From positions 496,001 through 560,000 of the forward strand of contig NZ_CP078078.1 in assembly GCF_023101205.1 (NCBI RefSeq): a stretch of DNA of 64,000 nt, read 5' to 3'. The notes under the pieces are model-generated. The model had not been told where the DNA came from and searched no databases. It worked only from the letters and a program-made list of their open reading frames with translations. Below are positions 514 to 14,574 of this stretch, piece by piece. This DNA comes from Microbacterium aurugineum (lineage in GTDB: Bacteria; Actinomycetota; Actinomycetes; Actinomycetales; Microbacteriaceae). Within the stretch, counting starts at the first letter, position 1, and each line of letters opens with the position of its first letter. The translations under genes and the position numbers were made by a program.

Positions 514-604
514 GGTGACGTGTCCGAGCGGCCGAAGGTGCAACTCTCGAAAAGTTGTGTAGGGTAACCCCCTACCGTGGGTTCAAATCCCACCGTCACC
601 GCCA
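514..604 (+). tRNA. tRNA-Ser (CGA anticodon)
   Basis: The acceptor arms GGTGACG (514-520) and CGTCACC (594-600) pair perfectly. The anticodon stem CAACT/AGTTG encloses the loop CTCGAAA, giving anticodon CGA (serine, UCG codons). A long variable arm (about GTAGGGTAACCCCCTAC) and the T-arm GTGGGTTCAAATCCCAC are typical of type II tRNAs. The discriminator base is G601 and CCA is encoded at 602-604. A strong hairpin follows at once. Confidence 0.95.
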
Positions 605-608
605 CCGC

Positions 609-651
609 GAAGGCCCCGAATCCCTTGGAAACACTGGGAAGCGGGGCCTTC
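609..651 (+). terminator. Hairpin terminator behind tRNA-Ser
   Basis: GAAGGCCCCG (609-618) pairs with CGGGGCCTTC (642-651). The loop itself contains TCCC and GGGA. It lies 5 nt after the encoded CCA, so it probably ends the tRNA transcript. No clear U-tract follows, which is common in high-GC actinobacteria. Confidence 0.7.
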
Positions 652-674
652 GTCACACTCGGAGGGCTCGCTGC

Positions 675-858
675 GGTAACGCAGCAGAAACCAGCTCATG
701 ATCCGTTGGGCCCGGGTCGTCGGCCCAGAGACCAGGACGAACCGTGGGTCGCTTGCCTGCTTGGCGGCTTCGATCACGTTCAGGGCGCCGTCTCGATCCA
801 CGCGGATCGGATCTCCCGCGGCAGCGAAGACCACGGCGTCGACGCCGGTCAGGCTCAA
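675..858 (-). pseudogene. Fragment of an NAD(P)H-binding (NmrA/epimerase-like) protein
   Basis: A TTG at 856-858 overlaps the stop of the upstream SDR gene and opens a frame beginning SLTGVDAVVFAAAGD. It continues with VDRDGALNVIEAAK and RFVLVSG, the middle part of atypical short-chain dehydrogenases of the NAD(P)H-binding family. The N-terminal glycine-rich Rossmann segment, about 60 residues in intact relatives, is absent. After about 60 residues the frame runs into non-homologous sequence toward the tRNA terminator. Both ends are therefore lost and I read it as a remnant. Translational coupling to the SDR could still produce a short peptide. Confidence 0.6.
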
Positions 859-1613
859 AGGAGGACTCCACCGGAGACCTCGAGGCGCTCACCTGTGACC
901 CACCGCATGCCGGGCGCGACGAGCGTGACGACGGCGTCGGCGATCTCCGCCGGTTCACCGACCTTGCCGAGCGCGGTCTGCTGGCTCAGTCCGGCACGCA
1001 GTTCGGCGTCGTCGCGCATCGCGCCGCCGTTGAAGTCGGTGGCCGTCGGACCGGGGGCGATCGTGTTGATGCGGATGCCGCGTCGTCCGAGCTCGAGCGC
1101 GAGACTCCGCGACAGGGCTTCAACGGCCGCCTTGGATGCCGCATAGACGGCGGTGGCGGGGCTCACATGCCGACTCAGCGAACTCGACAGGGTGACCACC
1201 CGTCCGCCTTCGGCGAGGTGCGGTGCGAGTGCCTGGATCAAGAGGAACGGCCCGCGGACGTTGACGGCGAACGTGTCGTCGAAGTCGGCGGCGCTCACCT
1301 CGCCCAGAGGGGCGAAGTGCCCGATCCCCGCGTTGTTGACGAGCACCGAGAGGGGAGACGCCGGCCACTTCGCGGCGACCGCGGCGAGAAGCGTCGTCGT
1401 CGCGGAGCCGATGGACCGCGGGTCCCCGATGTCCAACTGGAGCGGCAGCGCCTCGCCGCCGGCTTCTCCGATACGGCTCACGACGGCGTCAGCCGACGCG
1501 GCGGAGCGGGTCGCCACGACGACGCGATATCCGTTCTCGGCGAGGGCCAGCGCGGTCGCTTGCCCCAGTCCTCGGCCTGCACCGGTCACGATGGCGATCT
1601 CTGGACGATCCAT
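855..1613 (-). CDS. SDR family NAD(P)-dependent oxidoreductase
   Basis: A 252-residue classical short-chain dehydrogenase/reductase. The cofactor motif TGAGRGLG sits at residues 10-17, NNAG at 93-96, the catalytic Tyr/Lys in YAASK at 157-161 with the Ser in SSSLS about 13 residues earlier, and PGPTATD follows the active site. This is the usual order and length for a soluble carbonyl or alcohol oxidoreductase; the substrate cannot be read from sequence. An Arg after the first Gly pair (GAGRG) would fit NADP(H) preference, but that is inference. It is divergent from a TetR gene, with a palindrome in the shared promoter, so it is probably repressed by that TetR. Confidence 0.88.
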   Translation of the reverse strand: MDRPEIAIVTGAGRGLGQATALALAENGYRVVVATRSAASADAVVSRIGEAGGEALPLQLDIGDPRSIGSATTTLLAAVAAKWPASPLSVLVNNAGIGHFAPLGEVSAADFDDTFAVNVRGPFLLIQALAPHLAEGGRVVTLSSSLSRHVSPATAVYAASKAAVEALSRSLALELGRRGIRINTIAPGPTATDFNGGAMRDDAELRAGLSQQTALGKVGEPAEIADAVVTLVAPGMRWVTGERLEVSGGVLL

Positions 1614-1627
1614 GCTGACTCCTAGAT

Positions 1628-1645
1628 AAGTAAATAACTACTTAC
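1628..1645. promoter_or_regulatory. Candidate TetR operator in the SDR/TetR divergent promoter
   Basis: TAAGTA-N6-TACTTA is an inverted repeat in the 80-bp gap between the two divergent starts. Its AT-rich composition contrasts with the surroundings. A site placed here could control both genes. Confidence 0.5.
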
Positions 1646-1693
1646 CGATAAACTAGAAGCGCAGTCGGAGATCGTCAAGTCGAAGGGCAGCGC

Positions 1694-2248
1694 ATGAGAG
1701 ACGCGGAAGCCACCCGGTCGCGGATCCTGGCTGCGGCCATCGAGGAGTTCGCCGGGCACGGTTTCGCCGGTGGCCGGGTCGATCGGATCGCACGGGGCGC
1801 CGGGAGTAACGTGCGGATGATCTACGCGTACTTCGGGGGCAAGAGTGGTCTTTTCGATGCTGCACTCGAGACCGCGTTGCGCACGCTCGCGAACGATGTG
1901 CCCCCGGATCCCGACGACCTGGCCGGATGGGCGGGGAGAGTGTTCGACCACCACCAGGAACGTCCTGACATTCTCCGCCTGAGCATGTGGGCACGGCTGG
2001 AGCGACCTTCCGCGCTGTCTGAGCCCAGCGACGTGTATTCCGCCAAGGTGGACGGGGTGCGGGTGGCGAGCCCGGGCGCTCTGTCGCCGGTCGATGTCCT
2101 CGTCTTCATCTACGCGATCGCGCAGGCCTGGCAGCTCTCTCCGACCGGCCTCACGGGGCTCGAGGGCGCGCACGACGACCCCCGCCGCATCGCGGCGCAT
2201 CGGCGCGCGGTCGTCGCAGCCGTCGAAGGCATGCTCCGCGACGTGTGA
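1694..2248 (+). CDS. TetR/AcrR family transcriptional regulator
   Basis: A 184-residue protein with an N-terminal TetR helix-turn-helix at about residues 8-55. It has the TRSRILAAA entry helix, a recognition helix around SNVRMIYAYF and the following GGKSGLF, a variant of the usual K-E-x-L linker. The C-terminal part is a helical ligand-binding domain of the TetR_C type with no recognisable ligand signature. It is transcribed away from the SDR gene, so it is most simply a local repressor of that gene and of itself. It is slightly shorter than the average TetR protein (about 200 residues) but complete. Confidence 0.88.
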   Translation: MRDAEATRSRILAAAIEEFAGHGFAGGRVDRIARGAGSNVRMIYAYFGGKSGLFDAALETALRTLANDVPPDPDDLAGWAGRVFDHHQERPDILRLSMWARLERPSALSEPSDVYSAKVDGVRVASPGALSPVDVLVFIYAIAQAWQLSPTGLTGLEGAHDDPRRIAAHRRAVVAAVEGMLRDV

Positions 2249-2285
2249 TGCCCTCGGGTGCGAGCGAGTCGCATCCGAGGGCATC
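2247..2285. terminator. Bidirectional terminator between convergent genes
   Basis: GATGCCCTCGG (2247-2257) and CCGAGGGCATC (2275-2285) form perfect 11-bp arms around a 17-nt loop. The hairpin lies between the stop of the TetR gene (plus) and the stop of the CPBP gene (minus) and can serve both. Confidence 0.75.
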
Positions 2286-2292
2286 GTGACGA

Positions 2293-3249
2293 TCACGACG
2301 GACGGTCGGCTGAGCTGTTCAGCGCAGGGGTGCGTGCAGGCCCGGTCCTCCGCGTGATCCACCAGACGACAGCAGTGATCAGGATCAGTACTGCGCCGGG
2401 GATGAGGGTGGTGACGGAGCCGGCGATCTCTCCCCGGCTGTTGAGTGCGCCGCCGCGATCGATGTGCAGCGTCGTGCTGAGCACGAGGGCGGCCACGTTG
2501 TAGACGACGTGGAGGACGATCGCGGTCTCGAGCCCGCCGGTACGCCAGGTGACGATCGCCAAGGATCCGAACAGCACCAGGTAGGAGGTGAGGATGTACG
2601 GGTCGAGCGAGCCGTGGAAGAGCGAGAAGAGGACCGTGGGGATGACGATGCCGATCACCGCGCCGAGGCGGGCGTCCCTCGTCCATCCGCCGATGATGCG
2701 GAACATGAAACCGCGGAAGCCGTACTCTTCGCCGGCCGCCGCGAGTGGCGTGAGCAGCATGCCGATCACGAAGTAGGCGACGAGGTCGAACGTCGACCAG
2801 GGCACCTGGTCGACGGGCCCCAGGAGGAAGCCGAAGGCGACGACGAGGAGCAGCACCGGGCCGAAGGCGAGCAGCGCTCGTCCGAGCACGCCGTATCGGA
2901 AGCGTCCGGCTACGGAGTGCATCGACCGGAAGGGGACTCCGTAGAGCAGGCGCTGCAACAGCATGCAGTAGGGGATGAGCAGAGCAAGCGACAGCGCGCC
3001 TGCGGCCTGCTGGAGCGGCGTGAAACCAGAGCGCCCCAGGAGCTCCGTATCGACAAGGCGCGCCCCCACCACGAACAGTTGTGCGAAGACGGCCATCCCG
3101 ACGACCAGCAGGATGATCGCGAGGATGCCGCGGAGGATGCGGCGCTTCTCGCCGGCATATACGCGGTGGTATTCGACGCCAGAGGGAACCCGAGGACTCG
3201 GGACGGGTTCGTCCGTCTGGAGGAGCCAGTTCGGCGCGGTGTTGGTCAT
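2293..3249 (-). CDS. CPBP family intramembrane endopeptidase (ABI/CAAX-protease-like)
   Basis: A 318-residue polytopic membrane protein. After a soluble N-terminus of about 40 residues there are about eight hydrophobic segments. The three CPBP signatures are present: EEYGFR near residue 178, FSLFH about 45 residues later, and HVVYN near 250, which carry the catalytic Glu/His set of glutamic-type intramembrane proteases. I chose the ATG at 3247-3249, preceded by GGAGATC, over longer frames. It overlaps the upstream flavoprotein stop by 4 nt (ATGA) and is thus translationally coupled to it. Members process prenylated or small hydrophobic peptides, or act in bacteriocin immunity; the role here is unknown. 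Confidence 0.85.
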   Translation of the reverse strand: MTNTAPNWLLQTDEPVPSPRVPSGVEYHRVYAGEKRRILRGILAIILLVVGMAVFAQLFVVGARLVDTELLGRSGFTPLQQAAGALSLALLIPYCMLLQRLLYGVPFRSMHSVAGRFRYGVLGRALLAFGPVLLLVVAFGFLLGPVDQVPWSTFDLVAYFVIGMLLTPLAAAGEEYGFRGFMFRIIGGWTRDARLGAVIGIVIPTVLFSLFHGSLDPYILTSYLVLFGSLAIVTWRTGGLETAIVLHVVYNVAALVLSTTLHIDRGGALNSRGEIAGSVTTLIPGAVLILITAVVWWITRRTGPARTPALNSSADRPS

Positions 3250-4637
3250 GGGTGATCTCCTTGGTTCGTCTGCTGGTGAGGATGAGGCAACCCGATGGGG
3301 ATGCCGGTGAACCTGCCTGTCGGGTCCCGGTCTCGTTTCACAGCGTCGAGGTGGGAGATGCTGCTGTCGTAGGTCGCGGCGGCGCGTGCGGTGTCGCCGG
3401 GTGGGAGAAGGTTCGGGTAGGCGGCAGGGAGGGCGAGGGGGCGGAGTGCGTCGAGAATCCGATCCGCCCAGGCGATCTGCTCGTCGTGACCTTCCGTGTC
3501 GGCGGTGGCTGCGATGATCTCGACCATGAGGTGCGGTTCCCGGAGCGCCCATGCGGAATGGTCGGCGCTGATGCGGGTGGCGGCGCCGTGGAAATGGTGG
3601 ATGTTGATCGCGCTCAGCGGAGACGTGCGGCGTCGCTCTCCGTCAGCCAGAACCTCGATGACCTCGGGGGTGAGGCCGGTTAAGGATGCCGTGCGGAGTG
3701 TGTAGTGACGCCCGGAGGGGAACACGCCGTCGAGCGCGTGGAGCGCCTGCTGTGGCGTGGCGGGTCCGATCGTAGATGCCAGAGGCGTTCCCAGACGTTC
3801 GATCGCTCGCACCCACCCCGCCCCCTCGTCAGCTTCGCCGCTCCAGTGCAGCGTCACGAGCAGCGCGGCGTGGCCGTCGGGGCCGCTGCCGATCGCGGGG
3901 CTGACGGCGAGCTGATCGGGGAAGGTGGGGAGGACCCGGTCGAGGGAGGTGAGCACTTCACTCATGTCGGCCGTCGGAAAGACGACGGTTCCGGCGAGCA
4001 TGGCCGGGACTTCCTCCAGGGAGATCTCCAGAGAGGTGACGACGCCGAAGTTCCCGCCCCCTCCGCGAAGTGCCCAGAGGAGGTCCGCGTTCTCCGCATC
4101 GGAGGCTGTCACGATCGACCCGTCGGCAAGAACGACTTCTGCCGAGATGATGGTGTCGGCTGCGAGGCCGAGAATCCCGAGATAGGGACCGTATCCGCCG
4201 CCGAGGGCGAGCCCGGTGAAGCCGACCTCATTGACCGTGCCCACTGCGGCGACGAGGCCGTGTTCCGCGGCGGCATCGATCACGTCCTCCAGCCGGGCCC
4301 CGCCCTGGACCATGGCGGTTCGTGCCGTCTTGTCGATCCGGACGCCGCGCAGCTGCGAGAGGTCGAGGGTGACGCCGCCCTCCGCCCGCGCTCGGCCGAC
4401 CCAGTCATGGCCGCCTCCCCGGACGGCGATCGGCACGTCGCCCGGGACCGATTCGAGCACGTATCGGACATCTGCAGTGCTCTCGACTCGGGCGATGATC
4501 TCCGGGCGATGCGTCGGGTGTGCGCTCCAGAGTGCGACGGCCGTCGCGAACGAATCACCTCCCGGCCGGAGCACGCGCTCTCCCATCGCATCGCGCAGAC
4601 GGCTTGCCAATGCGTCCCAATCGATGTCTCTCGTCAT
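3246..4637 (-). CDS. FAD-binding oxidoreductase, berberine-bridge-enzyme type
   Basis: A 463-residue flavoprotein of the PCMH/VAO fold. Residues about 50-220 form the FAD domain with RGGGHDW (the His normally bound covalently to FAD), GLALGGGYG and WALRGGGGNFG. The C-terminal BBE segment has the YDSSISHL...RDPTGRF signature. The second covalent-attachment Cys of bicovalent relatives is replaced (GTVNEVGFTG has no Cys), so monocovalent FAD is expected. Such enzymes oxidise sugars or natural-product alcohols with O2. It is first in a two-gene operon with the CPBP gene and has GAGGAG five bases before the ATG. Two 17-bp palindromes lie upstream at 4698-4743. Confidence 0.85.
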   Translation of the reverse strand: MTRDIDWDALASRLRDAMGERVLRPGGDSFATAVALWSAHPTHRPEIIARVESTADVRYVLESVPGDVPIAVRGGGHDWVGRARAEGGVTLDLSQLRGVRIDKTARTAMVQGGARLEDVIDAAAEHGLVAAVGTVNEVGFTGLALGGGYGPYLGILGLAADTIISAEVVLADGSIVTASDAENADLLWALRGGGGNFGVVTSLEISLEEVPAMLAGTVVFPTADMSEVLTSLDRVLPTFPDQLAVSPAIGSGPDGHAALLVTLHWSGEADEGAGWVRAIERLGTPLASTIGPATPQQALHALDGVFPSGRHYTLRTASLTGLTPEVIEVLADGERRRTSPLSAINIHHFHGAATRISADHSAWALREPHLMVEIIAATADTEGHDEQIAWADRILDALRPLALPAAYPNLLPPGDTARAAATYDSSISHLDAVKRDRDPTGRFTGIPIGLPHPHQQTNQGDHP

Positions 4638-4697
4638 CGTTTCTCCTCTTCGTTCAGGCGGGTGGGACCGAGTCGAGCGGCACGGCCTCCCCGCGAA

Positions 4698-4714
4698 CTA
4701 ACACACTGTGCTAG
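4698..4714. promoter_or_regulatory. Candidate operator O1 for the TetR at 7351-7965
   Basis: CTAACACACTGTGCTAG is a 17-bp near-palindrome (CTA-N-CACA-C-TGTG-N-TAG). The same pattern occurs at 4727-4743, 7989-8005 and 8022-8038, only in promoter gaps of this locus. Confidence 0.65.
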
Positions 4715-4726
4715 CTCCTGGATACG

Positions 4727-4743
4727 CTAGCACGCTGTAATAG
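4727..4743. promoter_or_regulatory. Candidate operator O2 for the TetR at 7351-7965
   Basis: CTAGCACGCTGTAATAG, 29 bp downstream of O1 centre to centre, lies between the flavoprotein start and the start of the acyltransferase pseudogene. Confidence 0.6.
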
Positions 4744-4755
4744 ACCGGAGCGCCA

Positions 4756-5694
4756 ATGAACATGCCCCTCACGTCGACCCTTCGTCCATTGGGGGGCTTC
4801 GAGCGGATCATCGACCTGTACATCTCCCGCAACCCGGTGCAGTTCTCACTCGCCGTCAAGCTGGCCTCGCCGGTATCAACGGAGCAGCGTGCGCCTCGGC
4901 GGTGGTGCTCACGTTCTCTCATCAGATCAGCGACGGACGCGGGGCCCTCCTCGCCGTTCACGATCTGGTCGCCCTGCTGGCAGGACGAACGCGGCGCGCG
5001 CGCACCGTCTCGGACGCGCAAGAGGATCACGTGCAGCTCTTGCCTTCCGCCGAAACGCCGTCGGACGGCCTGCCAGCCGACGAGGAGGCGCCGAGACCCG
5101 CTGCTGTCCGACCCGTCGATGCCGCATCGCCCATGATCGACGTCGCCGAGCTCGACGAGGTCACGACGGGACTCCTTCGTGCCGCCGCCCGAGCGAATGA
5201 TTCGACGGTTCAGGGGGTCCTGTGTGCTGCTGCGGCACTGGAGATGCTCGAGGGCTCACCGCAGGGGCAGGTCCTCATCAACGTGCCCCTCGATCTGCGT
5301 CCGCTCCTCGGGCTCGACGACGCCGTGGTCAATCGGTTCGTCGCGACCACCGTGATGCTGAGTGCGACGGCGGAAGGCGACCTGTGGTCGCTGGCGCGGC
5401 GTGCCTCCACGCAGCTGCGGTCGGCCCGGGCCCGCGCGGCGGAATCGGTCGCGATGCTCGCGTCGCTCCCGCCCGGCGGCCGCCGACCTGGAGATCAGCA
5501 ATCTCGGTGTCTCCGTCGACGAGGGCTCCGACGTGCCTGCGATCTGGGGGCCGACGATGACGACGCAGGTGAGGGGCGAGCGCATCCTCGGTGTTCTCAC
5601 GCATGGAGATCGTCTTCGGCTCACCCTCACGACGCACGAGCAGGTCGGAACGCTCGTCGCCGGCATCGTTCGCAGGCTGACGTCTGCCATCTAG
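4756..5694 (+). pseudogene. Condensation-domain-like acyltransferase, frameshifted and internally deleted
   Basis: The ATG at 4756 opens an N-terminus reading LGGFERIIDLYISRNPVQF, as in PapA/WS-DGAT/condensation-type acyltransferases. After about 45 residues the frame is lost. Homology resumes in another frame at about 4890 with VVLTFSHQISDGRG, which holds the HxxxDG catalytic motif. It runs through INVPLDLRPLLG and NRFVATTV and breaks again at about 5480. The last part, EISNLGVSVDEG to LTSAI, is in the first frame again and stops at 5692-5694. The roughly 80 residues normally between the N-terminus and HxxxDG are missing. The gene is therefore non-functional as one product. The HxxxDG-containing middle piece could only be made from an internal start. 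Confidence 0.7.
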
Positions 5695-5708
5695 TGCGAG
5701 CGCGCCTC

Positions 5709-6162
5709 CTACAGCGTGGGGATGATGCCGCCGTCGACGCGGTACTCGGCGCCGGTCAGCCAACCCGCCCGATCCGAGGCGAGGAAGGCGATGAGCTCGG
5801 CGGCGTCCTCCGGCCTGCCCGGCGTGCCGAGCGGAATCGAGAGGTGCTCGAACGATCCGCTGTTCCATCTCGCTCGCCGAAATGCCGTGGTTCGCGGCAG
5901 CGTCGCCGATCGATGCGGCCGCGCCCTCGGTCTTGATGAAGCCGGGGACGACCACGAGGACGCGCACCCCGCTCCTCCCGGTCTCCACCGCGAGGGTCCG
6001 ACTGTACGTGTTGAGCGCGGCTTTCGAGGCGGCGTAGGACGCCTGCCCCGGCTGCGGGTAGTGGCTCGATATCGACGAGACGTGCACGACGACACCGCTC
6101 CCGCGCTCGATCATGGTCGGCACGATCTCTCTGTCCAACCGGACGACACCGAGAAGAGTCCA
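5709..6162 (-). pseudogene. SDR oxidoreductase, 5'-truncated and frameshifted
   Basis: The readable part starts around 6160 with LLGVVRLDREIVP and includes [10 protein letters not shown], the catalytic YAASK and PGFIKTE. At about 5850 an extra base shifts the frame; the C-terminus [11 protein letters not shown]...[14 protein letters not shown] continues in the neighbouring frame to the stop at 5709-5711. The whole N-terminal Rossmann half (TGxxxGxG, NNAG), about 110 residues, is missing. Upstream of the break lies the broken ArsR gene in the opposite orientation, so both probably lost their 5' ends in one deletion. Confidence 0.75.
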
Positions 6163-6169
6163 TCAGGGG

Positions 6170-6361
6170 AGCGAGTTCGATGTGGGGGTGTCTCAATCCA
6201 CGTTGAGCCATCATGTAAAGATCCTTCGCGAGGCGGGCATCGTCCAGAACGATCCGGAGGGCACGAGATGCCTGCTCTCGTTGCGGACCGTGGACCTCGA
6301 GAAGCGGTTCCCGGGTCTCGTCGACTCCTTGGGCATGCTCGTGCAGGGGGCGAAGGCCTAG
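6170..6361 (+). pseudogene. ArsR-family regulator, 5'-truncated
   Basis: The readable part begins with GVSQSTLSHHVKILREAG, the recognition helix of an ArsR/SmtB winged helix. It continues with the wing (DPEGTRCLLSL) and a short C-terminal helix ending QGAKA, with the stop at 6359-6361. Intact relatives are about 100-110 residues, so roughly the first 40, including helices 1-2, are gone. The in-frame GTG at 6113 reads through SDR-derived antisense sequence and is not a genuine start. The remnant faces away from the truncated SDR gene. Confidence 0.7.
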
Positions 6362-6391
6362 ACACCACGATCTCCGCGGACGGACGTGCCG

Positions 6392-7114
6392 TCACCCGGC
6401 GATGATGTGGACGTAGACGACGGAGATGATCGATGAGGATGCGTTGTTGACGGCGTGCACGACGACTCCGGGCCAGACCGACTTCGTCTTGCGCATCAGC
6501 CAGGCGGCCGCGAGGCCGACGATGACGGCGACCGGCGTCGAGAGGTTGAGTCCGTGGCTGAGGGCGAAGACGATGCTGCTGAGGATCGCCGCGAGCCAGA
6601 CGCCATAGCGTGTGAGCAGGGTGAAGAGCACGCCGCGAAACAGTAGCTCCTCGCCGATCGGGGTGAGGACCGCTCCGAGGAGGATGGCGCCGAGGAACCC
6701 GCCGATGCCGCTGGTCGCGGCGGACTGGTAACCGCTCTGGAGATCGGCGGCGTCTGTGGTCATGCTCACCAGCGTCGTCACGGCCAGGTTGAGAGCGACG
6801 ACTCCGATGCCGATCATGAATGCAATCGCGAGCCATCTCGGTGCCACACACGTGATGCCGAAGAGCGCCGCCGGACGCCTGCGAAGGGCGATCATGACAA
6901 GTACTCCGCCTAATGGCGCGAATCCCGAGATCGCGAACAGCGCCAGACCCTTGGCGACCGCGTCATCGTCCGGCATCTGGAGGTAGAGCAGGATCCCGAC
7001 GGCGTAGAGCGCGATGGCGACGCCGGCGGCGAGCCAGAGGTCGGGCCAGGTGACCCGACCGTTCCTGGCGCTTTGATGCAGGCCGGCGGCAGTGGTCCGA
7101 TCGCTGTGCGACAT
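6392..7114 (-). CDS. CPBP family intramembrane endopeptidase
   Basis: A 240-residue membrane protein with a 25-residue cytoplasmic start and about six to seven hydrophobic helices. CPBP signatures are EELLFR (about residue 155), FALSH (about 188) and HAVNN (about 222). The start ATG at 7112-7114 is preceded by AGGAGAAG. The gene sits directly behind the beta-lactamase remnant (9 nt) and is codirectional with the TetR at 7351-7965, so it is probably transcribed from the promoter with the 7989-8038 operators. It is one of five CPBP genes in the window. Function beyond the family is unknown. Confidence 0.85.
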   Translation of the reverse strand: MSHSDRTTAAGLHQSARNGRVTWPDLWLAAGVAIALYAVGILLYLQMPDDDAVAKGLALFAISGFAPLGGVLVMIALRRRPAALFGITCVAPRWLAIAFMIGIGVVALNLAVTTLVSMTTDAADLQSGYQSAATSGIGGFLGAILLGAVLTPIGEELLFRGVLFTLLTRYGVWLAAILSSIVFALSHGLNLSTPVAVIVGLAAAWLMRKTKSVWPGVVVHAVNNASSSIISVVYVHIIAG

Positions 7115-7122
7115 TCTTCTCC

Positions 7123-7260
7123 TCAGTTACTGCGGTCGAGTGCGTGCAGGGCGATGGACGCGGCTCTCGCCACGAGTGTGTTGTCGAAGTTCGCATGCGG
7201 GTCGTTGCGCGACGTCAGCACTGTGACGATGACGGGGTCTTCTCCTGGCGGTGTGCACGT
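7123..7260 (-). pseudogene. C-terminal remnant of a class A beta-lactamase-like serine hydrolase
   Basis: Read on the minus strand from about 7260, the frame gives PPGEDPVIVTVLTSRNDPHA and then DNTLVARAASIALHAL before the stop at 7123-7125. This matches the last beta-strand and helix of class A beta-lactamases (typically ...PLVLAVLTTRDDPDAE...). The catalytic SxxK, SDN and KTG motifs would lie upstream and are absent. The upstream sequence instead belongs to a GDSL-like N-terminus in another frame, so two different genes are joined near 7262-7272. Confidence 0.5.
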
Positions 7261-7265
7261 GTGAG

Positions 7266-7354
7266 GGGAGCCTGTGCGGCCTCATCCCGCGTTCCACCTT
7301 CTCGAGTCGCGCCACGCCGTCGACGAGTTCGGGTGTGATGGGGGTGGTGATCAT
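7266..7354 (-). pseudogene. N-terminal remnant of an SGNH/GDSL hydrolase
   Basis: An ATG at 7352-7354 overlaps the TetR stop and begins PITPELVDGVARLEKVERG, then MRPHRLP. This resembles the N-terminus of actinobacterial SGNH/GDSL esterases (ELxRGAxELERTxxGLxPHRLPAWAR). The catalytic GDSL block that should follow is missing; after about 29 residues the sequence changes to the beta-lactamase fragment. Identification rests on a short segment, so it is tentative. Confidence 0.4.
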
Positions 7355-7965
7355 CGCGCGACGGGCCACTCGCTCATGACCGCGTGGACGGCGAGCCGCA
7401 GGCTTGCCATCTCGGCGTCGATGCCCACGGCATCGGAGGGCAGCGCACGTTCGGTCATGAGCCCCGCCAGCACGGTCGAGAGGAACCGCGCTCGCTCCTC
7501 GACCCGACCGCCTGGGATCGCGCCCTCGTCGATCAAGGCGGTCAGCCACTGCGAGATCCGATGTCGCCCCATGCGGTCCAGGGCGATGTAGGTGGCTGCT
7601 TCGTCCTCGGACGGAGCCGTGGCCACATACGCCTCGTAGAGCGCCCCCCACTGCTTCCGGGCGCTCTCGCCCACCCCGACCTGACGGAGGATCAGCTGCA
7701 AGCAGGCGATGAGTCGTTCCTCCACCGTCAAGGAATGCTCATTGATCGGATCGTCGGGGAGCTCCACGTCGTACATCGCGGCCACCACCGTGTCGATGAG
7801 TTCCCGCTGCGTCGGGAAGAAATGGCGCAGGGACCCCGTGCTCACCTGAGCGCGGGCGGCCACTGCTCTCACGCTCAGACGTGCAGTGGGGTTCTCGCCC
7901 AGCATGGTTGCCGCGGCGATCAGGATCTTTGCCCGTGTCCCGGATTCCTTCGATGCTTCGTCCAT
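7351..7965 (-). CDS. TetR/AcrR family regulator of the CPBP/flavoprotein locus
   Basis: A 204-residue TetR protein. The HTH spans residues about 10-55 (TRAKILIAAATML, then VAARAQVSTGSLRHFFPTQREL). A BetI/TetR_C_6-like helical domain follows (residues 75-195), including VEERARFLSTVLAGL. The start ATG at 7963-7965 has GAGGGA upstream. Its divergent promoter carries two 17-bp palindromes (7989-8038), and two more of the same pattern lie 3.3 kb away before the flavoprotein gene, which suggests autoregulation plus control of a small local regulon. Its own downstream partners are the GDSL/beta-lactamase remnants and the CPBP gene at 6392. Confidence 0.88.
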   Translation of the reverse strand: MDEASKESGTRAKILIAAATMLGENPTARLSVRAVAARAQVSTGSLRHFFPTQRELIDTVVAAMYDVELPDDPINEHSLTVEERLIACLQLILRQVGVGESARKQWGALYEAYVATAPSEDEAATYIALDRMGRHRISQWLTALIDEGAIPGGRVEERARFLSTVLAGLMTERALPSDAVGIDAEMASLRLAVHAVMSEWPVAR

Positions 7966-7988
7966 TTGTCCCTCATGAGCCGAACTGT

Positions 7989-8005
7989 CTATAACAGTGT
8001 GCTAG
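7989..8005. promoter_or_regulatory. Candidate operator O3 for the TetR at 7351-7965
   Basis: CTATAACAGTGTGCTAG fits CTA-N-(C/A)ACA-N-TGTG-N-TAG and lies 24 bp upstream of the TetR start. Confidence 0.65.
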
Positions 8006-8021
8006 TTTAGCCCGTCGATGC

Positions 8022-8038
8022 CTATCACACTGTATTAG
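8022..8038. promoter_or_regulatory. Candidate operator O4 for the TetR at 7351-7965
   Basis: CTATCACACTGTATTAG, 33 bp from O3 centre to centre, lies just before GGAGG (8045-8049) of the divergent membrane-protein gene. Confidence 0.65.
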
Positions 8039-8054
8039 ATTCCTGGAGGTTGCG

Positions 8055-8699
8055 ATGATGGCGGGGATGAATTGGCGCAACCGTCGAGTCCGCGTCGGCT
8101 CCGGCGAACCGCTGCGCCGCTATCGCTGGTGGCAGATGTTCGGCAGGTCTCTCCGATCGATCACGCTGCGCTCCGCCGCCGGCACGACGTCGACGTACAC
8201 GGTCGACGTCCGCCACGCCGGGGACATGACCGACGGCGAGATCCGCGCCCGTCTCTACGTCGACGGAGCCCTGCAGTCCTACGCGAAGATGCCCACACGC
8301 TTCGCAGTGCCAGGCGGACACATCGAAGTGGCGATCACCGGGTTCGGGCTCAAACGGTGCCACTATGTGCGGGCGGACGGCACCGAACAGCAGCTGTCGC
8401 CCGATCCTCGATCCGCCGAAGGGCGTCGCGCTCGTTTGCACGAGCGGCATCCCACGGCGAGCCGGGTGATCGGCGTCATCTCCATCGCGTTCGTCGTGGT
8501 CGGCCTCAGTGTCGAGGTCCCTCAGATCATCGAGGCCCTCTCGAAGATCCCCCTGATCGCCGACTCGATCGGCACCTTCACCTCTCCCTTCCGACTCCCG
8601 CTCGAGCTCAATCTGCTCGTCGGTCTCGCCGCTGTCCTCGGCAGCACGGAGCGAGCCCTGCGAATGCGTTCGAGTTGGATCGACGAGCTCGCCAGCTGA
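8055..8699 (+). CDS. Hypothetical membrane protein with soluble N-terminal domain
   Basis: A 214-residue protein I do not recognise. Residues 1-130 are soluble and rich in beta-type alternation (RSITLRSAAGTTSTYTVDV, RARLYVDGALQS, HIEVAITGFGLKRCHYV). Two or three hydrophobic helices follow in residues 137-200 (RVIGVISIAFVVVGLSVEV, then LELNLLVGLAAVLG). The basic start (MNWRNRRVRVGSGEPLRRYRW) is cytoplasmic. GGAGG five bases before the ATG supports this start. It is the first gene of an operon with a CPBP protease 20 bp downstream, under the O3/O4 palindromes. It could be a partner or substrate of the CPBP protein; that is inference from position only. Confidence 0.75.
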   Translation: MMAGMNWRNRRVRVGSGEPLRRYRWWQMFGRSLRSITLRSAAGTTSTYTVDVRHAGDMTDGEIRARLYVDGALQSYAKMPTRFAVPGGHIEVAITGFGLKRCHYVRADGTEQQLSPDPRSAEGRRARLHERHPTASRVIGVISIAFVVVGLSVEVPQIIEALSKIPLIADSIGTFTSPFRLPLELNLLVGLAAVLGSTERALRMRSSWIDELAS

Positions 8700-8719
8700 C
8701 CTCTCCGAAAGGAACAACC

Positions 8720-9646
8720 ATGCGCCAGAGCGACTCTGCCGCTACGCCCGCACCGCACGTCGCCGACAGCCCGGCCACAAGGGGAGGAGGCCGCCCGTTC
8801 GGTGTGCACTTCCGGATGGCGGGGTGGAAAGCGCTCATCGTGATCGCGGTGCTGCCAGCGACGCTCCTGGTGACTCAGCTCGGGCTTTACCTGCTCGCGG
8901 GGCTCGTCGAGAGCGGCGACCCGTTCGCGCCCGAGCTGACGCCCCTGAAGCTCCTGGCGGCGAACATCAGCACCGGCCTCACGGCCCTGTTGGCGCTCGC
9001 CCTGGCCGGGTGGTTCGCGAAGGTGCCGTGGCGCGTCGTCTTCAGTGCGCCGCGCAGTTTCGACCGCCGTCGGCTCGTGACGTACTTCTTGGGCTCGGTC
9101 GTGATCGTCGGCCTCGCGATGGGGGTGGTGGGGCTGACGGCGCCAGAACAGGTCGGCTGGACGGGATTGTCGATCACCGGCACGACGGCCGGACTGCTAG
9201 CCGTCATGCTCCTCTCGACACCGATGCAGACCGTCGGTGAAGAGATCATGTTCCGTGGCGTGCTTCTGCCCGCTGCCGGGTCATGGTTCCGGTCTGCGAA
9301 GCCGGCCTTCCTCACGGGCCTCACCCTTTCGAGTGTGATGTTCGCCCTCCTGCACGGTTCCAGTGACCCGCTGCTGTTCGCGTACTACCTCTTCTTCTCT
9401 GTGTGCACGGCGGTGATGGGACTGCTCACCCGCGGACTCGAAGCCGCGATCGCCTTCCACACAGCGAACAACCTCATGACGACCACCCTCAACGCTGTCT
9501 TGAGCGGGGGCGGTGCTGTCGCTGTCGAGCGATCAGAGGGTTCCACCGGCGGGCTCGCCCTTCTCCTGCCCGCAGCCGGGAGCCTCGCCGTGCTCGTCAT
9601 GGTCGGGGTTCGGGAGCGTTCGCGCCGCCGGGAGACGCAGCGCTAG
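8720..9646 (+). CDS. CPBP family intramembrane endopeptidase
   Basis: A 308-residue polytopic protein with a roughly 30-residue soluble N-terminus and about eight hydrophobic helices. Signatures are EEIMFR (about residue 175), FALLH (about 212) and HTANN (about 255). I start at the ATG 8720-8722, preceded by GAAAGGAAC; longer frames read through the upstream membrane-protein gene. The gap to that gene is 20 nt, which indicates one operon. The sequence pattern is close to the CPBP at 2293-3249 (same LFGSL-type helix and HGSxDP after the second motif), suggesting these two are paralogues duplicated within the locus. Confidence 0.85.
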   Translation: MRQSDSAATPAPHVADSPATRGGGRPFGVHFRMAGWKALIVIAVLPATLLVTQLGLYLLAGLVESGDPFAPELTPLKLLAANISTGLTALLALALAGWFAKVPWRVVFSAPRSFDRRRLVTYFLGSVVIVGLAMGVVGLTAPEQVGWTGLSITGTTAGLLAVMLLSTPMQTVGEEIMFRGVLLPAAGSWFRSAKPAFLTGLTLSSVMFALLHGSSDPLLFAYYLFFSVCTAVMGLLTRGLEAAIAFHTANNLMTTTLNAVLSGGGAVAVERSEGSTGGLALLLPAAGSLAVLVMVGVRERSRRRETQR

Positions 9647-9696
9647 GCGCCGGTGCCGCAGTTGACGTGTGATCCACGGACGCGCCCTTCCACGCG

Positions 9697-10296
9697 TCAG
9701 CGAGTTCGGGTGAGCAGACCTGAGAGGAGCAGCTGTACCGGAGTGGCCGCATCGTAGTCGGTGTCGCTCGCGGCACCGATGCAGAGGTTCCCGATGCCCT
9801 TGAGCACGCTGTAGGCGTCGATCGGCGCATATGCATCGGCAGGCCGACGTGCTGTCTCGAGCATTGATGCGCACACGGGGACGAGCCGGCTGACGAAATA
9901 GGTGTGCAGAGCGTCGCCGGACCGGGCGCTGTCCCCTTGCAGTACGTCGGCGAGTCCGTGCTTCGTGGTGAGAAAGTCGACGAACATGGCAACCCAGGCC
10001 CGAAGAGCTGCCTCTGGCGTCTCGCTTTCTGCGAGCAGTCGGGGGCCGGCGTCGGCGCAGGCCTCGACCTGATGTCGGTACACCGCGACGACGAGATCGG
10101 CGCGGGACGGAAAGTGTCGGTAGATCGTTCCTACGCCGACGCCGGCCTTCGCGGCGATCTCCCGCACCGGCGCGTCGACCCCGGACACCATGAACACCGC
10201 TGCCGCCGCGTCGAGGAGCGCTTGCTGGTCTCGGCGCGGACGGCCCACTGAGGGGGCGCCCGCATCGCTCGATCGGTCGCTCGGCATGTCGGACAT
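9697..10296 (-). CDS. TetR/AcrR family transcriptional regulator
   Basis: Starting at the ATG 10294-10296, preceded by GGGGAG, the product has 199 residues. The HTH covers about residues 18-65: LLDAAAAVFMVSG, VREIAAKAGVGVGTIYRHF, then PSRADLV. The C-terminal domain resembles that of SCO1712-type regulators (AWVAMFVDFL, LADVL, GIGNLCIG), where it binds small hydrophobic ligands. It is divergent from an alpha/beta hydrolase gene. Inverted repeats in the intergenic DNA could be its operator, which makes it the likely regulator of that hydrolase. Confidence 0.88.
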   Translation of the reverse strand: MSDMPSDRSSDAGAPSVGRPRRDQQALLDAAAAVFMVSGVDAPVREIAAKAGVGVGTIYRHFPSRADLVVAVYRHQVEACADAGPRLLAESETPEAALRAWVAMFVDFLTTKHGLADVLQGDSARSGDALHTYFVSRLVPVCASMLETARRPADAYAPIDAYSVLKGIGNLCIGAASDTDYDAATPVQLLLSGLLTRTR

Positions 10297-10344
10297 GTCT
10301 CTCCCCACGAGTGCGATCTATAGACGGTTGCATTTCGGATCAGC

Positions 10345-10386
10345 GTTCCGTATTGTTGCGGAACAATGCTCCGATAATCAGTATCG
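10345..10386. promoter_or_regulatory. Inverted repeats in the TetR/hydrolase divergent promoter
   Basis: GTTCCG (10345-10350) pairs with CGGAAC (10359-10364). The overlapping ATTGTT (10352-10357) pairs with AACAAT (10362-10367), and CGATA (10372-10376) pairs with TATCG (10382-10386). Any of these may be the TetR operator; the cluster lies between the two starts. Confidence 0.45.
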
Positions 10387-10414
10387 CAGAGCGCAGCCCA
10401 GGAAGGTCGATTAC

Positions 10415-11359
10415 ATGGCTTCAGCATTCGTTCACGCGGCGGACGACATCATCGGCGCCGGAGTCCCGGTCGTCTCCGTCGCTCCCATCCCTTTGCTCGC
10501 TCCGGATCGACCGGTCCCGCTGGAGGTGCGGGTGTCTGCCCCTGCCGTCGGGGCTGATCTGCCCGTTGTCGTGTTCTCGCACGGCAATGGGTGGAACCTC
10601 GACGGGTACGCGCCGCTTACCGCGTTCTGGGCATCGCGCGGGTTCGTCGTGATCCAGCCCACTCATCTGGACTCCCGTCGGAACGGTTTCGGGTTCGACC
10701 ACCCCGTGTTCCCGACGATCTGGACCGAGCGGATCTCGGATCTCACCCGCATCCTCGACCAGCTCGACGCTATCGAGCGCGCCGTGCCGGGTCTTGAGGG
10801 TCGCGTGGACCGGAGCCGCGTCGCCGCCACCGGTCACTCCTGGGGCGGACAGACCGCGCAGTCGCTCCTCGGGGCACGGATCGTCGACGAGGCGGGCCAA
10901 GTGGGGGAGGACGTTTCCGACAGTCGTGTCACTGCGGGCATCCTCTTCGCCGCTACCGGCATCGGCGGCGACGACCTGCACCCGTTCGCGCAGGCGAACT
11001 TCCCCTTCATGCGACCGTCCTTCCGGGAGCTGACGGTGCCGACGCTCGTCGTGGCCGGGGACCGCGACCAGTCCAGGATGTCCAGCCGTGGACCGGACTG
11101 GTTCACTGATGCGTACACCCACAGCCCCGGCGCCACCGACCTCCTCACGCTCTTCGGCGCCGAGCATTCCCTCGGCGGGATCGTCGGATACGAAGTCGCC
11201 GAGACTACCGACGAGAACCCGGAGCGGGTCGCGGTCGCCCAGCGGATGAGTACCGCGTACCTCCGCAGCGCCCTACGCGTCTCCGAGAGCGATTGGGGCG
11301 CTGTCCGCGCCGCATTCGCCGACAGCGTCGAATCGATCGGTCGCGTCGACAGCAGATGA
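10415..11359 (+). CDS. Alpha/beta hydrolase, PAF-acetylhydrolase/dienelactone-hydrolase-like
   Basis: A 314-residue serine hydrolase. The oxyanion segment VVVFSHGNGWNLDGY is at about residues 52-66. The nucleophile elbow is GHSWGG (about 140-145), the acid Asp probably in VVAGDRDQSR (about 215) and the His in GAEHSLGG (about 250). No signal peptide is seen, so it is probably cytoplasmic. The ATG at 10415 has GGAAGG 9 nt upstream; earlier in-frame starts overlap the divergent TetR. The layout resembles actinobacterial platelet-activating-factor acetylhydrolase-like esterases. The substrate is unknown, presumably the ligand class sensed by the neighbouring TetR. Confidence 0.8.
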   Translation: MASAFVHAADDIIGAGVPVVSVAPIPLLAPDRPVPLEVRVSAPAVGADLPVVVFSHGNGWNLDGYAPLTAFWASRGFVVIQPTHLDSRRNGFGFDHPVFPTIWTERISDLTRILDQLDAIERAVPGLEGRVDRSRVAATGHSWGGQTAQSLLGARIVDEAGQVGEDVSDSRVTAGILFAATGIGGDDLHPFAQANFPFMRPSFRELTVPTLVVAGDRDQSRMSSRGPDWFTDAYTHSPGATDLLTLFGAEHSLGGIVGYEVAETTDENPERVAVAQRMSTAYLRSALRVSESDWGAVRAAFADSVESIGRVDSR

Positions 11360-11483
11360 CCGGCGGGCTGCTGCAGGGGGGTTCGTGGGTTCGCATGCAG
11401 GTCTTGCACTTGAGCCGTTGTGACGGGAGGACCGAAGGCGACGCCCGCAGATCAGTGTCTCGTGCGGAGAAATGACTCTCGCT

Positions 11484-11666
11484 TCATGTCGATTGACTGT
11501 GCGAACCCGACTGCAGGCGGTCGTACAGACTCTGCGCCGACACGAAGGACGGGCTCTCACGGAGTGCCGCGAGGACGGCGTCACGCTGCACCGTCCGTCG
11601 CGCGGCGGCGGGCTCGTGTTCGCCGGAGACGCCCTTGATGTCGGCGGACGGTGCGCGGTCAGTCAT
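11484..11666 (-). pseudogene. Fur/Zur-family regulator, N-terminal fragment
   Basis: The frame begins [10 protein letters not shown] and reaches RRTVQRDAVLAALRESPSFV, then SAQSLYDRLQ. This is the first winged-helix segment of Fur/Zur proteins. It then ends in SGSHSQST and a stop at residue 60, whereas intact Fur proteins have about 130-150 residues with the second half of the HTH, the zinc-binding HxH and CxxC motifs and a dimerisation domain. None of these is found downstream in another frame. The start overlaps the stop of the CobW-like gene, as in a zinc-responsive operon. Confidence 0.65.
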
Positions 11667-12660
11667 CGGAGTGCACGTGTGTCGTCCACTGTGGGAAGGG
11701 GTCTGCGAAGCGCATCCAGGTACGCACGTCGGTCAGGAGTTCCTCGTCGTCGAGCAACGCGGCGTCGAGCGCGCGTGAGAGGGCGACGGCATCCATGTCG
11801 ATGCCGATGAACGCCAGATCCTGCCCGAGAGCGAGGGGAGGCGTGGGGGAGTCGTCGTCACGCGCGAGCGGCTCGAGCGAGATCATCTGGCCGACCTGAT
11901 CCCAGCGGCCGACCAGGCCGGGTCGCGTGGCGAGTCGACAGAATCCTGCCGAGCGGATGATCGCTCCGTGTCGACCGCTGCCGAACTCGTCGTTGAGAAG
12001 GCGGTGCAGTCGGCCGGGGTGGAAGGGGTGCAGCCTCTCGTAGCGGAACGCGGTCACGCGGGCGTCTCGCATGTGCGGGTCATGCTCCTCGTTGAGCACG
12101 TGGACCCAGCCTGGTTGGTGGACCTGCTCGGAGTGCGGTGCGGGTGTGGCCGTCGCAGCGGACCGCTCCAGGCTGATCCGCGCGGCGGGAGCCAGATGGC
12201 TCAGTGTCGTCAGAAGGATGGACAGGTCCCGCGTCTCGACCGAACCCCAGCCGGTCACCATGACGGTGCTCGCGTGCTCGACATGCTGCACGAGCCGCAG
12301 GGCGCGCGCGACGTAGAGAGTGCCGTCCGCATACGACGCCGCGACGTAGTCCTCCGCCATGAGGTCTTCGAAGAACGTGCCGGCGTCCACGACGCAGACG
12401 AGCTCGGCAAGTCGTACGCACTCGTCGTCCGTGAACGCGCCGATGGCCGCTTCGACGGCGGCATCGGCGGGGATCTCGACCACGAGACGACCCGTCGCGG
12501 GGATGTCGCGAACGAAAGCGGCGGCGTCGTTGACCGACGCGCGACGGAGCGCGGACGCGGTCACGTGCGCGCATCGCTGAGCACGCGCGTGGCGTCTCGC
12601 GACGGCGGTCCGGGCGCGTTCGCGGTGACCGGTGATGAGGGTGACTTCGGTGAACGACAA
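11659..12660 (-). CDS. CobW/COG0523 C-terminal-domain protein, putative zinc metallochaperone without P-loop
   Basis: A 333-residue protein that matches actinobacterial CobW-like proteins mainly in its second half. It has [31 protein letters not shown] as the G-domain remnants, and the CobW_C block [19 protein letters not shown] through [20 protein letters not shown]. The Walker A motif (GxxGxGKT) and the CxCC metal-binding motif of canonical COG0523 GTPases are absent. The frame offers a TTG start at 12658-12660; no in-frame ATG is nearer the promoter. It is divergent from a zinc-free bL36 gene with a Zur box between. A zinc-starvation role is well supported by context; GTPase activity is not. 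Confidence 0.7.
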
Positions 12661-12705
12661 GGGGGCTCATTTCCATCGGGGGCGCTCGATCGTCTATGTT
12701 GAACA

Positions 12706-12720
12706 TGATAACCGTTATCA
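12706..12720. promoter_or_regulatory. Zur box
   Basis: TGATAACCGTTATCA is a 15-bp palindrome (TGATAA-N3-TTATCA) lying 14 bp before the bL36 ATG and 45 bp from the CobW-like start. It shares the frame TGA-N-AA-N3-TTATCA with the site at 33761-33775 in the zinc-importer promoter. Confidence 0.8.
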
Positions 12721-12734
12721 ATAGGGAGGTGACA

Positions 12735-12857
12735 ATGAAGGTTCGCGCATCGATCAAGTCGCTCAAGAACCAGCCCGGCGCCCAGGTGGTGCGTCGTCGG
12801 GGCCGTGTGTATGTGATCAACAAACTCAACCCCCGCTTCAAGGGCCGACAGGGCTGA
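12735..12857 (+). CDS. rpmJ: Zinc-independent ribosomal protein bL36 (type B)
   Basis: A 40-residue basic protein starting [19 protein letters not shown] and ending [10 protein letters not shown]. It is a bL36 paralogue of the C-minus type: canonical bL36 (about 37 residues) binds zinc through three Cys and one His, and none of these is present. Such paralogues (also called ykgO or rpmJ2) replace the zinc form in 50S subunits under zinc starvation. GGGAGGTG lies 5 bases before the ATG and the Zur box directly upstream. A terminator hairpin follows. It is too short for standard length cut-offs. Confidence 0.95.
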
Positions 12858-12904
12858 ATCTCCCTCGACGGGCTGATCCGCCCCGCTTGCACTCAAGCAC
12901 CACA

Positions 12905-12937
12905 GAGCCGCCCGGGCAGCGTTGCCACGGGCGGCTC
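12905..12937 (+). terminator. Terminator of the bL36 gene
   Basis: GAGCCGCCCG (12905-12914) and CGGGCGGCTC (12928-12937) form 10-bp perfect arms around a 13-nt loop, 47 nt after the bL36 stop. Confidence 0.75.
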
Positions 12938-12972
12938 ATCTCGACGCGGTCTAGTCGGTGACCAGTTCCCAG

Positions 12973-13164
12973 CTAGAGGTTCTCACTTCTCATGGTCCTG
13001 TTCCTGCGCTGGACGAACTTGGCTCCCAAACCTGCACCGAGGACGACGATCGGAGTGCCGATGAGGAAGATGATCGATGATGCCGACGGAAATCCAGTCG
13101 CAAGCAGCGCGAGGACTACCAGGGTCGCGATGACGACTCCTGTGAAGATCAGCCAAGAACGCAT
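12973..13164 (-). CDS. Small hypothetical membrane protein
   Basis: A 63-residue product if it starts at the ATG 13162-13164 (MRSWLIF). It has two hydrophobic helices (LIFTGVVIATLVVLALLATG and SIIFLIGTPIVVLGAGLG) and a short basic C-terminus RRNRTMRSENL, giving a hairpin with both ends in the cytoplasm. A longer frame begins at 13197 and adds 11 residues. No family is recognised and there is no clear ribosome-binding site. It may be a real small protein of the actinobacterial two-TM type. Confidence 0.45.
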   Translation of the reverse strand: MRSWLIFTGVVIATLVVLALLATGFPSASSIIFLIGTPIVVLGAGLGAKFVQRRNRTMRSENL

Positions 13165-13337
13165 GGATCCCGATGACCGTGCAGGCAGCCCGGCCAACGG
13201 CCGGGATCAGACACAGAGCCGCGGCGACCGCAGCTCCACGCTTCTTCGAGTTCTGAGTCGCCCGCCCGCGAGTCGCCCATCGCGGATGCCGGCTTCACCA
13301 TGGAGTGGTCGTCGTGGAGCTCGTGGCCGAGCGTCCT

Positions 13338-13607
13338 TCAGGGCGTGGCGTCGTCCGTTGCCACGCCCACCCTCAGGGTCATTGGGCGCGCGTTGCTGGG
13401 CGCCAACTCGCGGCTTGTCACGTTGGCCTGCCCCTGATGCCGCTGGACGGCGATCGCCGTCGCGAGGGCGATGAGAAAGCTGGTCATCGCCACGCCCCAC
13501 GCGGCCGCGGCAAGCTGGACGGGGAGGAGCATCGATGCCAGCAAGAATGCGACCCCGATGAGCGGAAGGATGATCGTAAGACGCTGCGTGATGGTCCGAG
13601 TCATCAT
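13338..13607 (-). CDS. Small hypothetical membrane protein, possible target of the adjacent response regulator
   Basis: An 89-residue product from the ATG at 13605-13607, which has AGAGAGG just upstream. There are two hydrophobic helices, LTIILPLIGVAFLLASMLL and AAAAWGVAMTSFLIALATAI, then a polar C-terminal tail of about 35 residues. No family is recognised. Its promoter region contains the perfect 16-bp palindrome GTAGCCCTAGGGCTAC (13714-13729), a half of which recurs upstream of the response-regulator gene, so it may be a target of that regulator. Confidence 0.55.
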   Translation of the reverse strand: MMTRTITQRLTIILPLIGVAFLLASMLLPVQLAAAAWGVAMTSFLIALATAIAVQRHQGQANVTSRELAPSNARPMTLRVGVATDDATP

Positions 13608-13713
13608 CGCCTCTCTTCTGGAACCGGAGATGTGGCCAAGCAGTCGCCGACGGCGATGACCGTCTACATCGTGGGTGCCTGTGCTGTGCCGGATCAAGGG
13701 ATCTGGGTGTTTC

Positions 13714-13729
13714 GTAGCCCTAGGGCTAC
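13714..13729. promoter_or_regulatory. Perfect 16-bp palindrome, candidate response-regulator site
   Basis: GTAGCCCTAGGGCTAC lies 107 bp upstream of the small membrane-protein start and just behind the response-regulator stop. A related half, TAGCCCTGGGG, occurs at 14449-14459 in the response regulator's own promoter. Confidence 0.45.
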
Positions 13730-13762
13730 CGATCACTTCCGAGCCACGCAGGCGCAGGAAGG

Positions 13763-14413: not shown

Positions 14414-14574
14414 GTCTTCACGGTATCGCGGGCCTCGGGCTGCATCTCTAGCCCTGGGGTCATGATTTCTCGACCTGAAGAGCATCCCTCGTAGGGTGGA
14501 CGGAGCTGCCGCAGCGCCTGTCGATGCCGATCTGAGGCTCGGCGAGGGCGGTCGGCCGTATGAAGGAGACCAGC

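Follow-up and report, generated by a model that had tools for sequence, protein, structure and literature searches.

The stretch analysed here (the window) comprises 64,000 nucleotides of Microbacterium aurugineum (assembly GCF_023101205.1, contig NZ_CP078078.1, positions 496,001 to 560,000 of the forward strand). Between positions 4698 and 8038 it carries four copies of a 17-bp palindrome, arranged as two pairs in two divergent promoters 3.3 kb apart. A gene for a TetR-family regulator faces a membrane-protein gene (MP) across one pair (proximal), and a flavoprotein gene faces a broken acyltransferase gene across the other (distal). The four palindromes are very probably binding sites of the neighbouring TetR. 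The features concerned are listed below; mismatches refer to the pattern CTANCACANTGTGNTAG and scores to a matrix trained on the four window sites only.

4698..4714, no strand assigned: candidate operator 1 of the distal pair, CTAACACACTGTGCTAG; 0 mismatches, score 24.4
4727..4743, no strand assigned: candidate operator 2 of the distal pair, CTAGCACGCTGTAATAG; 2 mismatches, score 21.5, 29 bp start to start from operator 1
7989..8005, no strand assigned: candidate operator 1 of the TetR/membrane-protein pair, CTATAACAGTGTGCTAG; 1 mismatch, score 23.0
8022..8038, no strand assigned: candidate operator 2 of the TetR/membrane-protein pair, CTATCACACTGTATTAG; 1 mismatch, score 23.3, 33 bp from operator 1
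7351..7965, minus strand: TetR-family regulator, 204 amino acids, presumed autorepressor (PF00440, E = 1.4e-7)
8055..8699, plus strand: membrane protein MP, 214 amino acids, no family; predicted N-terminal beta domain (residues 31-113) and C-terminal helices
8720..9646, plus strand: CPBP (Rce1-like) intramembrane protease following MP, 308 amino acids (PF02517, E = 2.4e-15; EEIMFR, FALLH, HTANN)
3246..4637, minus strand: FAD-linked oxidase of the EncM/6-hydroxy-D-nicotine oxidase type behind the distal pair, 463 amino acids (PF01565, E = 3.7e-24)
2293..3249, minus strand: CPBP protease (CPBP1), 318 amino acids, its start overlapping the end of the oxidase gene (PF02517, E = 1.8e-13; EEYGFR, FSLFH, HVVYN)
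4756..5694, plus strand: broken PapA/condensation-type acyltransferase that lacks an internal stretch and shifts frame further on

The 64-kb window was searched with CTANCACANTGTGNTAG allowing up to three mismatches. Only four matches were obtained, beginning at 4698, 4727, 7989 and 8022, exactly where the original prediction had placed its four copies; a shuffle control gave a mean of 0.44 matches, and none of 100 shuffles reached four. The consensus proposed there, CTA-N-CACA-N-TGTG-N-TAG, is exact at 4698-4714, and the sites at 4727, 7989 and 8022 depart from it at two, one and one positions, respectively. The predicted pairing within divergent promoters was borne out: the distal pair lies in the flavoprotein/acyltransferase intergenic region (4638-4755, about 118 bp) and the proximal pair in the TetR/MP intergenic region (7966-8054, about 89 bp), so that the putative operators at 7989-8005 and 8022-8038 stand in the regulator's own divergent promoter. 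With the matrix, the best score in the window after these training sites was 8.5.

For the entire source genome (3,626,995 bases) a widened pattern, CTANMACANTGTRNTAG, was used, to which the window sites have 0, 1, 0 and 0 mismatches. The motif had been expected to be rare away from these promoters, and no further place with 0 or 1 mismatch was found outside the window in the 3.63 Mb scanned; two other places (160861 and 2008441) match with 2 mismatches.

Of 366 same-genus genomes, 28 have TetR relatives (E <= 1e-20); in 12 of the 28, the source genome included, copies reach at least 70% identity, and two of the 12 carry two such copies. Named records at 92-93% TetR identity are Microbacterium oxydans, Microbacterium algeriense and Agromyces mediolanus. 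All 0-1-mismatch matches in the 12 TetR-bearing genomes lay at TetR loci, one genome (G138) having only two 2-mismatch sites there. No 0-1-mismatch site was found in 12 sampled same-genus genomes drawn from those listed without a TetR match among the 366, where every match has 2 mismatches. Likewise, at 12 of 12 MP loci whose fetched stretch contains no such TetR, no site scored above 8.9 with the matrix; these loci form part of a set of 60 genomes, and one (L108) belongs to a genome, G270, with a TetR locus elsewhere. One genome, G022, holds two TetR/MP copies at two places (L039 and L040), 71-72% identical to the window TetR.

Two sites were present at every TetR promoter of the orthologous loci (L037-L040, L099-L105, L119 and L120). 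A second pair stands ahead of CPBP1 in L037 and L039 (L099 has one site at the cut-off and its copy L157 has two), and between oxidase and acyltransferase in L038 and L119, with the 29-bp spacing of the window. Four of the 366 genomes have oxidase relatives (E <= 1e-90); each belongs to the 12 whose TetR reaches at least 70% identity, and one of the four relatives has an internal stop; the probability of this co-occurrence would be 7e-7 if the genes were independent, relatedness being ignored. CPBP1 relatives of at least 50% identity were found in five same-genus genomes, all TetR-bearing.

The scan was extended by TetR alignment to 58 loci from 38 named genera and one metagenome-assembled genome without a genus name, searching 200 bp upstream of TetR at a threshold score of 12. 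At least two sites were found in 53 of the 58 loci, one site in four and none in one (L164), whose pair sits at the oxidase/acyltransferase genes instead. Among 2755 control stretches of 200 bp only four contained a site, and four unpaired stray sites were counted in 1.10 Mb at score 12. Spacings in the relatives are mostly 24-35 bp, 33 bp being commonest (11 cases). The upstream sites number 114, and the family consensus is CTAG-Y-AC-R-S-Y-GT-R-CTAG. In a further set of 22 loci, 20 of them with a TetR of 27-50% identity, every TetR had a site of at most four mismatches ahead of it; stray 4-mismatch matches also occur elsewhere within these loci. In 13 of the 22 the sites overlap, 13 bp apart, with common CTAG-like half-sites, and an arrayed version of the operator accompanies distant TetR relatives in L042, L043, L044, L123, L125, L127-L132, L016 and L017.

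Second pairs were found in ten of the 58 loci, eight before genes of a recurring set and two before class C beta-lactamase genes. The eight stand before CPBP1 in L157-L159 (18-19 bp), at the oxidase/acyltransferase genes in L160 and in L164 (Nocardiopsis; 212 and 378 bp, measured to the matched parts), at MP in L208 and L175 (in the latter MP faces a class A beta-lactamase) and before a second membrane protein in L195. This recurrence bears on an alternative in which TetR controls its own divergent promoter only, the distal pair being an evolutionary leftover or the target of a paralogous TetR. The broken acyltransferase behind the distal pair would agree with that, as would two further TetR genes within the same 15.4-kb strain-specific segment; however, the promoters of those two genes score at best -1.4 and 2.1, whereas the distal sites score like the proximal ones, and the distal pair has been kept at its spacing in L038 and L119 and with the same two genes in Nocardiopsis. 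We regard this alternative as very improbable. The predicted wiring is supported because the sites are specific within the genome, the pairs are conserved at both promoters and the sites are absent where TetR is absent; it is highly likely, on the sequence evidence, that one TetR serves two promoters through paired operators.

The regulator itself matched the TetR_N helix-turn-helix family with 31.6 bits (PF00440; cut-off 24), and this region is almost invariant across 21 aligned relatives. Its predicted structure consists of nine helices (mean pLDDT 76), with the all-helical C-terminal fold of a ligand-binding domain. Foldseek matched the model to KstR and other TetR-family chains over approximately 190-200 columns (best E = 5.8e-5, TM about 0.5); sequence and fold matches do not settle which ligand is the inducer.

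In the Tn10 TetR-tetO system a TetR gene and its target diverge from a common promoter with two palindromic operators about 30 bp apart; control of a divergent promoter by a TetR through two operators is a textbook arrangement. The present locus is alike in its divergent TetR-family gene and target and in the paired palindromes about 30 bp apart in their common promoter. It differs in the sequence of its 17-bp operator, in the extra pair at a separate promoter and in its targets, which would be proteases, hydrolases and membrane proteins rather than an efflux pump.

The genes that accompany the regulator form a recurring set: a family-less membrane protein, CPBP proteases, a second membrane protein, TAP-like hydrolases and, in a minority, beta-lactamases. 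Within 4.2 kb upstream of TetR and divergent from it, MP was found in 46 of the 58 loci, CPBP in 24, the TAP-like hydrolase in six and the second membrane protein in six; at least one of these four is present in 54, the exceptions being L164, L176, L190 and L199. Rare members are the EncM-like flavoprotein (2/58) facing a PapA-like acyltransferase (3/58), and a GDSL hydrolase was found in three loci, beside TetR in one. In five of the 12 TetR-less loci MP adjoins a GDSL hydrolase, and inspection of the upstream DNA by eye suggests that several have the end of the second membrane protein right before MP; these genes therefore associate without the regulator as well.

MP was without any family assignment in family and Pfam searches, its relatives numbering 550 (120 listed); its model has a mean pLDDT of 67, and the strongest hydrophobic stretch begins at residues 132-145. 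The EExxxR, FxxxH and HxxxN motifs characterize CPBP glutamic intramembrane proteases, and all three CPBP proteins of the window have an Rce1-like domain with these motifs intact. Two of the three genes lie in operons behind the operator pairs, as had been proposed; the third lies downstream of tetR on the same strand, an order common to L038 and L119, and is possibly part of the tetR transcript, judging from strand and order. Between it and tetR lies a gene remnant.

6392..7114, minus strand: third CPBP protease, 240 amino acids, downstream of tetR (PF02517, E = 6.1e-22; EELLFR, FALSH, HAVNN)
7127..7350, minus strand: remnant that joins the start of a GDSL-type hydrolase to the final part of a class A beta-lactamase, everything in between being deleted

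The remnant is composed of hydrolase residues 1-43 (7354-7226) and beta-lactamase residues 268-309 (7254-7129); in L038 both genes are open frames at this place. The motifs of class A beta-lactamases are SxxK, SDN, ExxLN and KSG/KTG; the window retains only the last ~42 residues, and the motifs were found in the L038 protein instead.

The oxidase aligns over residues 19-443, nearly its full length, with EncM chains (best E = 8.1e-55), and mitomycin radical oxidase is also among its matches. It had been described as a BBE-type oxidase. That assignment was not supported: only FAD_binding_4 and no BBE domain was found at E <= 0.001, a limit beyond which weaker matches were not looked for, and the closest proteins are EncM and 6-hydroxy-D-nicotine oxidase. 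BBE-type bicovalent flavoproteins link their flavin through His and Cys; RGGGH is present here, and inspection by eye, unaided by an alignment, showed no Cys in the region expected to carry it. The window gene is unlike the EncM group in overlapping a CPBP protease gene and in sitting behind a TetR-type operator pair. The acyltransferase was correctly called a pseudogene: pieces of the intact relative (a single open frame of 402 codons in L038) match window 4780-4887, 4857-5582 and 5479-5691 in two frames. That relative resembles PapA5-type acyltransferases in matching Condensation and PapA_C and in its HxxxDG motif, and differs in scoring 36.1 against an NCBIfam PapA5 cut-off of 396.

The whole regulon lies in a segment that is specific to this strain, bordered on its left by a tRNA gene.

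514..604, plus strand: tRNA-Ser (CGA), left border of the strain-specific segment, from comparison with a same-species genome

The match between the window and the same-species genome (G111), at 98.5%, runs to base 604, where the tRNA-Ser gene ends, and resumes at 16023. For 605-16022 (15.4 kb) no match of more than 150 bases was obtained in that genome, which holds ~4.4 kb of other DNA there. A second exact copy of at least the last 14 bases of the tRNA gene was not found in 104 kb. Among the matches listed, TetR and MP relatives of 70-80% identity occur in other genera and families, and one genome (G379) carries two different TetR loci. The absent segment, the close relatives in other genera and the two loci of one genome therefore fit a horizontal spread of the module.

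Taken with the conserved sites, these data make it likely that a mobile TetR autorepressor runs an inducible cell-envelope kit through both paired-site promoters. The DNA as read shows paired, specific and conserved sites and a recurrent gene set; repression, autoregulation and release by a ligand would be expected by analogy with the TetR family. The regulator would bind the palindrome pair in its own promoter, common to the divergent MP/CPBP operon, and the second pair in the promoter of the flavoprotein/CPBP operon and of the now broken acyltransferase gene. A small molecule binding TetR should free both pairs simultaneously, and its action would induce membrane proteins together with intramembrane proteases in a coordinated manner, joined in some relatives by secreted hydrolases; the kit might then protect or remodel the cell envelope against an outside compound. 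According to PMC3511530, five of five tested TetR-type regulators situated <200 bp from a divergent neighbour repressed that neighbour. Streptomycete and mycobacterial TetRs divergent from enzyme genes are similar, as described in PMC3511530 and PMC4482099, in lying mostly <200 bp away and in having palindromic operators and non-efflux targets.

Several observations weigh against this reading. At <=2 mismatches a backwards control pattern gave 18 strand-hits in the source genome versus 11 for the real pattern (the split of the control by mismatch number was not reported), and in most genomes scanned it matched at least as often as the real one; the 2-mismatch class was therefore given no weight. 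A sigma-70-like promoter was not found in either intergenic region, and an overlap between sites and promoter elements is therefore not shown. Exact peptide words were used to collect the 58 loci, and since the word LRHFFPTQ falls within the DNA-recognition region, the sample favours the same DNA specificity; some of these loci are, moreover, copies of genomes also counted in the same-genus set. Eight same-genus genomes lacking such a TetR have CPBP relatives of 43-47% identity, and at two of the loci concerned (L244 and L245) a single weak site scores 11.7, perhaps the diverged operator of another TetR. Lastly, the cargo varies so widely that a single function is not proven.

In six of the 58 loci (L157-L160, L172 and L177) tetR is followed, in the same orientation, by a class A beta-lactamase gene. 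In L175 such a gene and MP diverge from an operator pair, and in L203 it comes after MP in the orientation of MP. Two Mycolicibacterium records carry class C genes immediately behind the second pair (L185:10720-11994 and L188:10646-11926, the latter 92% identical to the former), and L195 has a remnant in its operator unit. NCBIfam cut-offs were passed by the one protein of each class scanned (class A of L038, 246.9 versus 200; class C of L185, 524.8 versus 415). For a minority of loci the gene positions make control of beta-lactamases by the module likely; the window has no such control. These genes would suit a rival reading, an inducible switch for resistance to beta-lactams or other envelope antibiotics, in which TetR senses the drug or a cell-wall fragment, beta-lactamases and hydrolases are the key outputs and the window has lost its beta-lactamase. 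A beta-lactamase or remnant within such a unit was, however, counted in only 11 of the 58 loci; class A genes lie nearby but outside the unit in L173, L174 and L187, and 44 loci have none in the fetched stretch. We consider such a switch unlikely.

A second rival starts from the enzymes of the distal promoter and assumes a regulon for natural-product or lipid catabolism: oxidase and acyltransferase would act on a lipophilic compound that doubles as the inducer, with only an accessory role left to the membrane proteins. The kinship of the oxidase with EncM, 6-hydroxy-D-nicotine oxidase and mitomycin radical oxidase points in this direction, as do the PapA-like acyltransferase and GDSL hydrolase of L038; the rarity of oxidase and acyltransferase, set against the frequency of divergent MP and CPBP, makes it quite unlikely. 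Returning to the envelope kit, a function in envelope defence is suggested by the gene set and is put forward tentatively. CPBP immunity proteins adjoin bacteriocin genes in known systems; the complete CPBP motifs are alike here, and the regulator is a TetR.

The locus can be viewed as the form taken here by an actinobacterial envelope-response module that spreads horizontally and has swappable genes. The gene combination had been put forward as one without a described counterpart; no prior description of the regulon was found in the literature (a search that did not extend to the motif logos and to the supplements of PMC4482099), and the combination is not peculiar to this locus, being one version of a widespread module. 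Neither 'CAAX' nor 'beta-lactamase' occurs in the main texts of PMC3511530 and PMC4482099, their motif logos and supplements lying outside that check.

It is possible, if doubtful, that the module amounts to a mobile pan-actinobacterial envelope-defence regulon, with one TetR, strongly conserved paired operators and an exchangeable kit made up of the family-less membrane protein, CPBP proteases, the second membrane protein, an EncM-like oxidase and secreted hydrolases, among them beta-lactamases of classes A and C. If so, it would provide an inducible beta-lactamase route apart from BlaI/BlaR and AmpR, with MP and CPBP as partners in sensing or repair. In some of the 38 genera the common operators link CPBP and MP with beta-lactamases and further secreted hydrolases, and they offer a testable regulon for poorly understood bacterial proteins (CPBP proteases and a conserved membrane family without a Pfam model). 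The TetR ligand, once known, would reveal what these proteins respond to, and the operator is specific enough for further members to be sought by sequence alone.

Some minor features of the window were also recorded. Between the two promoters, 5709-6361 holds remnants of an SDR gene and an ArsR-type regulator gene. At 855-2248 an SDR oxidoreductase gene and a divergent TetR gene, without an operator of this type, travel with the cluster (82-98% identical in L158 from Agromyces mediolanus and 93-98% in L119). At 9697-11359 another TetR gene diverges from an alpha/beta hydrolase gene, and the TetR-less loci L107, L108, L110, L111 and L113 have relatives of these two genes close to MP and the GDSL hydrolase. 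None of six window proteins matched a PADLOC model at E <= 0.001; the TAP-like hydrolase beside MP in L100 (L100:6880-8472) matches model PDLC01094 with E = 3e-84.

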